Assembly (NCBI RefSeq): GCF_003143515.1 | Contig: NZ_CP029343.1 | Coordinates: 2,666,001-2,730,000 of the forward strand | Reading direction: 5' to 3' | DNA: 64,000 nt | DNA from: Massilia oculi | GTDB lineage: Bacteria; Pseudomonadota; Gammaproteobacteria; Burkholderiales; Burkholderiaceae_D | In this document: positions 3,524 through 55,224 of the stretch, one piece after another | Layout of the letters: each line of letters begins with the position of its first letter | Numbering within the stretch: the first letter of the stretch is position 1 | Made by a program: the position numbers and the translations under genes | Notes under the pieces: model-generated | Database searches by the model: none | The model's input: only the letters and a program-made list of their open reading frames with translations | Told to the model about the DNA's origin: nothing

Positions 3524-3609
3524 CGTCGTTCCCGCGCAGGCGGGAACCCAGGTTGTTCGCGTTACGATAACGCTGGCACACTTGGGTTCCCGCCTCCGCG
3601 GGAACGACG
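3524..3609. repeat. Inverted pair of REP-like palindromes
   Basis: Two 29-base units face each other, at 3524-3552 and 3581-3609. Each has the core GTTCCCGC-N3-GCGGGAAC, and the second is the reverse complement of the first apart from two bases. The pair can fold into one long hairpin around a 28-base spacer. It lies between the M28 peptidase and the hydrolase. The same unit recurs at 9739-9816, 15519-15547, 19911-20019 and 55078-55103. Confidence 0.85.
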
Positions 3610-9738: not shown

Positions 9739-9816
9739 CGTCATTCCCGCGCAGGCGGGAATCCAAGTTTGCCGGCAACTCACCGGGCTTAGGTTCCCGC
9801 CTGCGCGGGAACGACG
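9739..9816. repeat. Inverted pair of REP-like palindromes between rpoB and rpoC
   Basis: Two 29-base units at 9739-9767 (with ATTCCCGC and GGGAAT in place of GTTCCCGC and GGGAAC) and 9788-9816 lie in opposite orientation, 20 bases apart. Co-transcribed with rpoBC they would form a strong hairpin between the two cistrons. They belong to the same family as the pair at 3524-3609. Confidence 0.85.
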
Positions 9817-15518: not shown

Positions 15519-15547
15519 CTTAGGTTCCCGCCTTCGCGGGAACGACG
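15519..15547. repeat. Single REP-like palindrome just after rplA
   Basis: One copy of the 29-base palindromic unit (GGTTCCCGCCTTCGCGGGAAC core). It ends 3 bases from the rplA stop codon (15551-15553), between rplKA and the rplJ leader. Confidence 0.85.
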
Positions 15548-19722: not shown

Positions 19723-20041
19723 TCAGACTGCAGTAGAAACTTTTTCCACTTCGCCTGACAGCGTTGCTTCGGGGCGTGATTGTAACGGTCGGACTGTAAA
19801 GCTGCAAGGGTGATTTTGCCAAGTGCGAAAAAATCTTCATGAACGTGCTTGGAATTGTTTCGCTCGCAAACCCACACCGCCAGACCACGTCGTTCCTGCC
19901 ACTGACAGCAACGACTTCCCGCGGAGGCGGGAACCCAAGTTTATACGCGCAGTGTGGCGGTGAAAAATGGCCGGTTTGGCATGCGAGGATCCCGGGTTCC
20001 CGCCTTCGCGGGAACGACGGTCTTGAGGCAAGCAGTGGGAC
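19723..20041. other. Gene-free spacer with repeats
   Basis: This stretch of about 320 bases lies between the tRNA operon promoter and the HDOD gene and contains no supported gene. It holds an inverted REP-like pair (19911-20019) preceded by a short hairpin-forming segment (19888-19910) that recurs near 44284. Confidence 0.6.
19888..20019. repeat. Compound repeat: CTGCCACTG-type segment plus inverted REP-like pair
   Basis: The segment at 19888-19915 (CGTCGTTCCTGCCACTGACA onward) runs straight into REP-like unit 19911-19939. A second unit in opposite orientation is at 19991-20019. A diverged version of the first half occurs at 44284-44350. Confidence 0.75.
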
Positions 20042-31077: not shown

Positions 31078-32181
31078 TGTTTAGTTTCGTGTGATCATGT
31101 TCCCCGTCGCAGCATGGCCTTGTTCCGTGCAAAGGCCGTGCTCGATGAGATAATTGCTGGCTTCCCGCATCGTTCGTCAGCCCCTCGCAGAACATCACCA
31201 TATCGAGCATGAGTTCACGCATTCACCCGCAAGCCCGCACCACGCCAAAAATCCGTCAGGAGATCAAGGATTCCGGCCTGTCCGACCGTCAAGCGGCCAA
31301 GGTGTTCAATATCACTCGGGCCACCGCTGCCAAATGGCTCAAGCGGGACGACGTGCAAGACCGCTCGCATCGTGCTCACACCCTGCATACGACCCTGAGC
31401 GCAGCCCAGGAACTGGTCGTGCTGTCCCTGCGCCAGACGCTTTACTTACCGCTCGACGACCTGCTCTACATCACCCGGCAATACATCAATCCCGAGGTCT
31501 CCCGTTCAGGCATTGCGCGACTGCTCAAACGCGAAGGCATGGCACGACTGGAGGACGTGATCCCTCAAGCTGAAGGCGAAACGATCAAGGCCAAGAAGAC
31601 CTTCAAGGACTATGAGCCAGGCTTCCTGCACGTCGATATCAAGTACCTGCCACAGATGCCTGACGAAACCTCACGCCGCTACCTGTTTGTTGCCATTGAC
31701 CGCGCGACGCGCTGGGTTTTTCTGCATATTTACAACGATATGACTGAACGTAGTAGCGTCGATTTCCTGCGCCGTTTGAAGCTCGCATCGCCGATCAAGA
31801 TCACCAAGATACTGACCGACAACGGCTCGCAATTTACCGACCGCTTTGCCACCAAAGACAAGAAGCCCAGCGGCAATCACGCCTTCGACAAGGCATGTGG
31901 CAGCATGGAAGTCGAGCATCGCCTGGCGCCTCCGCGCCACCCGCAAACTAACGGCATGGTGGAACGCTTCAATGGCAGGATCAGTGAGCTGATCGCGCAG
32001 ACCCGCTTCGATAGCAGGGCCGATCTGGAGACCACATTGCACAATTACCTCAAGCTTTACAACCACCATATCCCGCAGCGAGCTATCGGCTCAACGACAC
32101 CGATTCAGGCGCTCAAGAATTGGCAGAAACGCAAACCTGATCTATTCGTCAAACGCGTCTACGATCAGACGGGACTCGACA
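31078..32181. mobile_element. IS481-family insertion sequence, 1104 bp
   Basis: It begins TGTTTAGTTTCGTGTGATCA at 31078 and its other end, read inward, begins TGTCGAGTCCCGTCTGATCG. These are imperfect inverted ends with the TGT...ACA termini typical of IS481. It is flanked by the 6-bp direct repeat AGTAAT (31072-31077 and 32182-32187), a clean target-site duplication inside the RAYT gene. Confidence 0.93.
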
Positions 32182-32186
32182 AGTAA
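31209..32186 (+). CDS. IS481-family transposase
   Basis: A 325-residue DDE transposase. An N-terminal helix-turn-helix (LSDRQAAKVFNITRATAAKWLKR) is followed by the RNase-H-like integrase core with the three acidic residues in HVDIKYLP, LTDNGSQFT and NGMVERFNGR. The reading frame runs one base past the element's right end: codon AAG takes its last two bases from the target duplication, and the TAA stop (32184-32186) lies in the flanking target repeat. It looks intact and could be active. No strong Shine-Dalgarno precedes ATG 31209. Confidence 0.93.
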   Translation: MSSRIHPQARTTPKIRQEIKDSGLSDRQAAKVFNITRATAAKWLKRDDVQDRSHRAHTLHTTLSAAQELVVLSLRQTLYLPLDDLLYITRQYINPEVSRSGIARLLKREGMARLEDVIPQAEGETIKAKKTFKDYEPGFLHVDIKYLPQMPDETSRRYLFVAIDRATRWVFLHIYNDMTERSSVDFLRRLKLASPIKITKILTDNGSQFTDRFATKDKKPSGNHAFDKACGSMEVEHRLAPPRHPQTNGMVERFNGRISELIAQTRFDSRADLETTLHNYLKLYNHHIPQRAIGSTTPIQALKNWQKRKPDLFVKRVYDQTGLDK

Positions 32187-32541
32187 TGACCATTGAGTTG
32201 GCGCATGCAACTCGGTAGGTTCCCCTCGACCGTTTCCACCAATAAGTGGTAATGGTTGGTCATCTGGCAAAAACTGTGAACGATGCAATGGTGGCGTTCG
32301 CAAACCTTCGCCAGCACATCTAGCCAAATACGCCGATCAGCGTCATCCCGAAAGATCGGTGCGCGTCGGTTTCCGCGCGACGTCACGTGGTAGAGCGCCC
32401 CAGGAAAATTGACTCTGAGTGGTCGTGTCATCCGATAACGGTAATGGATTGGCACCCACCAACGCTGAGATCGCTCAGAATCCTCAAGGACCTTGATTAC
32501 TGCTGAACTCGTGTCCAAATGTCAGACCTGACCCCGATGTT

Positions 32542-55035: not shown

Positions 55036-55128
55036 GTAACGTGAGCGCGGTTGCTGGATATCCGAGCCTGGCAATAACGTGTTTCCCGCCTACGCGGGAA
55101 CAAGCTCTTGTCGCAACGCTCCTCGGAA
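55036..55128 (-). promoter_or_regulatory. SAH riboswitch upstream of ahcY, with a REP-like hairpin insertion
   Basis: On the minus strand the conserved blocks occur in order: CCGAGGAGCGTTGCGAC (complement of 55110-55126), GCCAGGCTCGG (55062-55072) and GCGCTCACGT (complement of about 55039-55048). CCGAG pairs with CTCGG, and GAGCG with CGCTC, forming the SAH-riboswitch pseudoknot. It ends about 30 bases before the ahcY start and is an 'on' switch in known cases. The variable hairpin between the first two blocks is formed by a REP-like palindrome (55078-55103). Confidence 0.93.
55078..55103. repeat. REP-like palindrome within the SAH riboswitch
   Basis: The core GTTTCCCGCCTACGCGGGAAC matches the repeat family at 3524, 9739, 15519 and 19911. 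It occupies the variable arm of the riboswitch. Confidence 0.85.
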
Positions 55129-55224
55129 CGGGGTAGTTTAGCACGCCTGGATGGCGGGGGAATGCTTGTTGGATCGTGATATGGCGCATGGGGTCGGCGG
55201 CCTTGCCGCCGCCCCCATGAAGGC

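Follow-up and report, generated by a model that had tools for sequence, protein, structure and literature searches.

The stretch of DNA that was analysed, hereafter the window, comprises 64,000 nucleotides of the Massilia oculi genome and carries on its minus strand a SAH riboswitch, directly downstream of which lies an intact open frame of 470 amino acids, taken as ahcY from its riboswitch context. The leader scores 50.5 bits with cmscan against a gathering cut-off of 37 for RF01057, and there is no second match to this family elsewhere in the window's genome. In its association with ahcY, its score above the cut-off and its conserved core, the element resembles the SAH riboswitches described upstream of ahcY in proteobacteria (PMC4239095). 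Across a comparison that spans the extended −10-like box TGCTAAACT, the aptamer and the sequence up to the start of ahcY, the window's leader has no departures outside P2 at columns which at least 95% of the remaining 61 leaders in the genus share. Nothing has changed in the ligand core or the P1 strands, nor in the promoter-like box or the ribosome-site hairpin, and both this comparison and the score of the covariance model uphold the initial annotation, which had described the conserved SAH-riboswitch blocks upstream of ahcY as intact. The −10-like box may itself be the promoter element of the ahcY leader. The features of the locus, together with the related repeats in the window, are collected in Table 1.

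Table 1. Coordinates in the window of the ahcY leader, its structural elements and the other repeat loci.
Feature	Position	Strand	Basis
Inverted REP-core pair	3529..3604		core scan
Inverted REP-core pair	9744..9811		core scan
Single REP core	15525..15542	+	core scan
Inverted REP-core pair	19916..20014		core scan
Expression platform hairpin over Shine-Dalgarno GGAG and ahcY start codon	54998..55050	−	RNAfold, −23.7 kcal/mol
ahcY start codon	55004..55006	−	sequence
SAH riboswitch aptamer (RF01057), 5′ of ahcY	55036..55130	−	cmscan 50.5 bits and conserved columns
Putative P4 3′ strand GCAACCGCGCUC, also part of ribosome-site hairpin	55043..55054	−	sequence
P1 3′ strand CUCGGA	55061..55066	−	Rfam alignment
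P2 arm, 39 nt (18 nt in nearest relatives)	55072..55110	−	coordinates counted from sequence
18-nt REP core UUCCCGC-GUAG-GCGGGAA (RNA strand), apical P2 hairpin	55083..55100	−	exact core match
Putative P4 pseudoknot 5′ strand GAGCGUUGC	55113..55121	−	complementarity read from sequence
P1 5′ strand UCCGAG	55122..55127	−	Rfam alignment
Extended −10-like box TGCTAAACT, adjoining aptamer 5′ side	55135..55143	−	conserved in 62-leader alignment

The expression platform is predicted to adopt essentially the same hairpin in the five leaders that were folded (−22.4 to −23.7 kcal/mol, RNAfold), and the Shine-Dalgarno site within it has a pairing probability of 0.993 in the window's leader, with a median of 0.993 over all 62. 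The outer strand of this hairpin, GCGCUC, is at the same time the 3′ strand that the putative P4 requires, a pairing which is read from the sequence, and the usual on-switch logic therefore follows. In other words, without SAH the leader hairpin would close over the Shine-Dalgarno site and the start codon, and with SAH the P1, P2 and P4 pseudoknot helices would form and draw GCGCUC off the platform hairpin, such that ahcY would be translated. P4 is here assigned to what we take to be the pseudoknot helix of the SAH riboswitch; the Rfam model does not score it.

What distinguishes this leader is the tip of its P2 arm (55100-55083), the opposite strand of which reads TTCCCGCCTACGCGGGAA and belongs, without a mismatch, to a dispersed repeat. 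The 21-mer GTTTCCCGCCTACGCGGGAAC, located at 55081-55101, matches the window eight times when as many as 3 mismatches are allowed (shuffled sequences give a mean of 0.01): once in the riboswitch itself and seven times at four other loci (3.5, 9.7, 15.5 and 19.9 kb). In the 5.84-Mb genome as a whole the 18-nt palindrome core TTCCCGCCTNCGCGGGAA occurs in 39 exact copies, that in the riboswitch included, and its reversed control in none. The four further loci had been reported as intergenic; their number stands, but open reading frames of at least 100 amino acids overlap three of the four, although some of these frames are probably spurious.

The class to which the repeat belongs is best judged from the dispersed copies. 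Read in a common orientation, the 29 other exact copies that were inspected (of 38) give the consensus nACGTC-R-TTCCCGC-GNAG-GCGGGAA-Y-CCAAGT, with CGTC present in 21 of the 29, CCA in 18 and a standard outer pair in 26. CGTC-tagged matches number 54 in the genome (none in the control), and exact cores are found in 43 of the 62 genomes of the genus. According to the description by Di Nocera et al. 2013 (PMC3733652), CGTC-1 REPs are characterised by a CGTC tag, an 8-bp stem, a 4-nt loop and a CCA tail, occur mostly as inverted pairs, lack a dedicated transposase and are linked to the Neisseria dRS3 and Rickettsia RPE elements. In so far as they are described there, the likeness extends to the tag, the stem and loop lengths, the tail, the frequent inverted pairs and the absence of a nearby transposase. 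The same description, however, gives A–T as almost invariable at the first two stem positions of CGTC-1, whereas the first pair is A–T in only 5 of the 29 dispersed copies and G–C in 19, the second position being T–A by construction of the core. These sequence features place the repeat among the CGTC-type REPs, nearest to CGTC-1 although, because of the first stem position, not strictly within it. In four copies (L021, L024, L029 and L031) the CGTC tag gives way to a second, different hairpin centred on CAGTG or CACTG (GTCGTTTCCGCCAGTGGCGGGAACGAC in L029), which suggests that these four are composite repeats.

A cognate transposase, as in a REP/RAYT or REPtron system, was considered and rejected, since neither the window's own Y1_Tnp fragment (32183-32395) nor 11 of the 12 other Y1_Tnp loci has a core beside it. 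Overall, no core was found at 12 of the 13 loci scanned in six genomes (about 1.5 kb, up to 3 mismatches), the exception, L264, having a single core with 2 mismatches. This absence agrees with what PMC3733652 describes for CGTC repeats. The Y1-type fragment in the window lies in a 117-aa open reading frame (32165-32518, minus strand), which abuts a 325-aa frame (31209-32186, plus strand) for an integrase-type transposase-like protein; the Y1 frame may be a tyrosine transposase gene cut off by an insertion sequence.

The riboswitch copy departs from this pattern in its flanks. It keeps seven inner stem pairs and the 4-nt loop, such that seven of the eight pairs of a CGTC-1 stem are present and the loop fits, but the outer pair is open (G opposite A), GCTT stands in place of the CGTC tag, CAC in place of the CCA tail, and no inverted partner copy lies beside it, which sets it apart from the CGTC-1 REPs described in PMC3733652. 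The possibility that the flanks are retained in degraded form was scored and dismissed, neither the tag position (P = 0.37) nor the tail position (P = 0.11, or 0.18 allowing one indel) being significant against random sequence. Single losses are found elsewhere, the open outer pair for example in 3 of the 29 other copies, whereas loss of both flanks is confined to the riboswitch copy among the 30 copies inspected of 39. Since the tag, the tail and the closed outer pair are missing, the copy is not filed as a complete REP, and our reading is that of a captured core, apparently remodelled to extend the P2 stem. The proposal that the variable hairpin is a copy of the dispersed repeat hence stands for the 18-nt core and falls for the flanks. 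Among 18 REP loci submitted to Rfam (30 had been fetched of the 39 present), none of the copies lies inside another known RNA family at the cut-off.

The initial annotation had left two alternatives, that the aptamer received the repeat in a permissive loop or that a riboswitch arm resembles the repeat by chance. The latter would require that ordinary hairpin growth lengthened P2 and that the tip came to resemble the REP core fortuitously, or because stable GC-rich stems are preferred in both. P2 is certainly variable: among the matches listed, long arms bearing unrelated hairpins are common across the betaproteobacteria, for example in Cupriavidus and Oxalobacter, and the P2 spacer measures 26 to 56 nt in 15 out of 392 genomes from the family (exact pattern). 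Moreover, the second hairpin of the Cupriavidus arms is not dispersed (1 to 3 copies in each of four genomes), and the CGTC tag and CCA tail are missing from the window's riboswitch copy. Set against this, the match to the core is exact at 17 of 17 specified positions, and in 20000 pair-preserving permutations of the window's arm not one came within 1 mismatch of it. Of the 118 distinct long P2 arms among the matches listed, that of the window shows 0 mismatches to the core and the remaining 117 differ from it at 4 to 13 positions, arms of other groups being compared with this REP core only and not with repeats of their own genomes. A tip of the form CCCGC-loop-GCGGG is likewise confined, among the matches listed, to 2 of 156 distinct arms, namely the window's and that of a second genome of this genus, G048. 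Chance growth is accordingly improbable as an explanation, even though the hairpins of relatives are unrelated to the repeat. Insertion into a permissive loop is favoured instead, in that the leader is scored by the model, the relatives' hairpin is some 21 nt shorter rather than of the same length, and the match exceeds that expected of a hairpin of this composition.

The distribution of arm lengths in the genus gives the direction of the change. The RF01057 riboswitch is above the cut-off in all 62 genomes compared, and the P2 spacer, which separates GAGGAGCG from CCAGGCTC, comprises 21 nt in one of them, 23 in 16 and 24 in 43; in the other two, G048 and the window's genome, it reaches 45 nt. 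As the initial annotation had proposed for comparison, relatives do lack the repeat in this arm: 60 of the 62 leaders have the short spacer of 21–24 nt, and in the nearest ahcY relatives (G059 with 97% identity, G010, G005 and G035, from 61 of the 62 rows after the partial L089 was dropped) the arm is 18 nt long and its stem 7 bp. Since the short form is held by these 60, the nearest included, the long arm is derived. On the ahcY tree the two long-arm genomes fall in separate clades and the long arm needs two changes; a tree uniting them is rejected (p-AU 4e-6), the pair having been picked by arm length before any tree was made. Both strands of the basal P2 arm in the window's leader also differ from those of its relatives, and for this reason neither a target duplication nor a clean empty site can be drawn.

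The score of 50.5 bits is the second lowest of the 62, after the 47.7 bits of G048, and might be regarded as a sign that the insert damaged the switch and that the ahcY leader is degenerating. The loss in score, however, fits the longer arm, no position that is at least 95% conserved has changed and the downstream frame remains open, all of which makes degeneration very improbable.

The second long arm was at first treated as a plain control without a repeat, a role that has been reversed in part. Its tip is GUACCCGC-AUUA-GCGGGCAC, and the same P2 arm is found in L222 (Massilia sp. RYN_540). Of a subfamily of the same REP type, GTACCCGC/GCGGGTAC, G005 has ten copies, G010 about fifteen and G061, from a neighbouring group of the ahcY tree, three, and a variant stem GTACCCGC/GCGGGCAC with a REP-type loop is found in G010 and G036. 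The G048 stem matches the GTACCCGC subfamily at 15 of 16 positions; none of 20000 permutations of the arm is as close to it, with 73 of the 20000 giving a CCCGC/GCGGG tip. Its loop, on the other hand, is ATTA rather than GNAG, the tag and tail are absent, and in G055 this stem pattern is matched once around a loop that is not of REP type. The hairpin occurs a single time in its own genome, with no further copy in 158 kb of it (runs of N included), and CGTC REPs in G048 (84% complete) and four members of its clade number 0 or 1, which is the control level. That the G048 arm is a second, independent REP capture is on balance probable, and only probable because the ATTA loop misfits and because of the non-REP loop in G055; the capture looks older than that in the window's genome.

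Folding predictions show that the two arms have more in common than their 45-nt spacers and missing flanks. The window's P2 arm is the most stable of the 62 (−16.0 versus a median of −5.5 kcal/mol), and at all three basal pairs it has the lowest pairing probability of the set (0.741, 0.776 and 0.66); G048 comes second in stability and second lowest on all three basal pairs. Such a combination, in which a stable tip might nucleate the arm, is what would be expected had the REP hairpin been adopted and selected for altering how the ahcY leader folds during transcription, how stable the RNA is or how it responds to SAH, and the full-leader minimum-energy fold, in which GAGCUUG beside the repeat pairs with CAGGCUC of the core, could be taken in the same sense. 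The energetics argue otherwise. The aptamer-only cost of forming P1 and P2 is 2.9 kcal/mol, equal to the median, and although the full-leader cost of 2.77 kcal/mol ranks 59 of 62 (median 1.3), it lies within the range of the four nearest relatives (1.89–2.87 kcal/mol; G059 2.54, G010 2.60, G005 2.87). Misfolding of the aptamer through the competing helix was rejected on the same grounds, the ensemble costs being those of the nearest relatives. Moreover, this REP hairpin is present in the arm of one genome only. Adoption under selection is thus quite unlikely, and the comparison of folds, put forward together with the suggestion of a changed folding rate, provides no clear indication that the switch has changed, at a cost like that of the nearest relatives. 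The switch in the window's genome probably works and the insertion is probably neutral.

Taken together, the likely explanation is in our view that a REP core was inserted into the permissive P2 loop and tolerated there, with the aptamer otherwise unchanged. A copy of a CGTC-type REP, presumably the product of transposition or template switching at another REP, would have entered the loop of a short P2 hairpin in the lineage of the window's genome. The tag, the tail and the outer stem pair would then have been lost or rewritten, and the repeat would therefore now sit on a weaker basal P2 helix. The REP hairpin would merely lengthen the distal end of P2, where it is tolerated.

The surroundings of the riboswitch in other genomes are informative in this regard. 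REP cores with up to 2 mismatches lie upstream of it in 11 of the 62 genomes (L055, L058, L034, L038, L043, L056, L065, L067, L081, L083 and L088, the last carrying a different stem), six of the 11 with inverted pairs, among them G005 and G010; there are none upstream in the window's genome or G059 at this threshold, and in L089 only about 60 nt were available to the scan. REPs therefore often reach this neighbourhood. The upstream copies lie 5′ of the conserved −10-like box and are therefore probably outside the ahcY mRNA. Within the leaders themselves, the sole REP in any of the 62 at up to 2 mismatches is that in the P2 loop of the window's genome, which points to REPs being tolerated in this loop and removed elsewhere in the leader. 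It is slightly more probable than the converse that the P2 loop is a recurrent landing site, colonised twice independently within one genus by two subfamilies of a single REP type, TTCCCGC in the window's genome and GTACCCGC in G048.

The peripheral arms of riboswitches vary greatly, and where new arm sequence comes from can seldom be seen. In the window's leader the likely source can be identified, close relatives still have the short arm, and G048, as a probable second case, serves as a replicate. The leader differs from other SAH riboswitches in that its P2 spacer exceeds that of 60 of 62 relatives by about 21 nt and terminates in a dispersed repeat. The nearest precedent is that of the Rickettsia palindromic elements, which, in the summary given in PMC2229807 of Ogata et al. 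2002, are found in the tmRNA and RNase P RNA genes. In both systems, as far as that summary goes, a dispersed palindrome lies within a conserved structured RNA and is apparently tolerated, but the Rickettsia elements are of 105–146 bp and lie in housekeeping RNAs, whereas the present insert is an 18-nt REP core in a metabolite-sensing leader. The present case would add a metabolite sensor to the structured RNAs in which palindrome insertion is known, and offers a natural test both of the tolerance of an aptamer in its distal arm and of the effect of a very stable tip on a switch. No earlier report of a REP in a riboswitch was found among the open-licence papers listed; in their relevant passages PMC2267715 and PMC2873474 treat riboswitches and palindromes separately, and those of PMC11790956 and PMC11188199 concern split SAH aptamers.

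Other leaders of the family and beyond show further variation in length. In Cupriavidus (L125, L136, L145 and L158) the spacers are of 57–58 nt, with two hairpins predicted on one stem; that the second of these is a dispersed repeat was rejected on the copy numbers given above. Six further leaders of the family were fetched, of which G395, G189 and G101 were covered and G096, G182 and G076 left out. No REP core lies within the stretch scanned in the former three, which are lengthened between P1 and P4 (G395, L271), both there and in P2 (G189, L276) or in P2 (G101), the stretch between P1 and the P4 3′ strand being unusually long in L276 and L271. Finally, L142, a record titled Alistipes senegalensis, has the same SAH riboswitch arm as Oxalobacter L117, and this metagenome-assembled record looks mislabelled or mixed.
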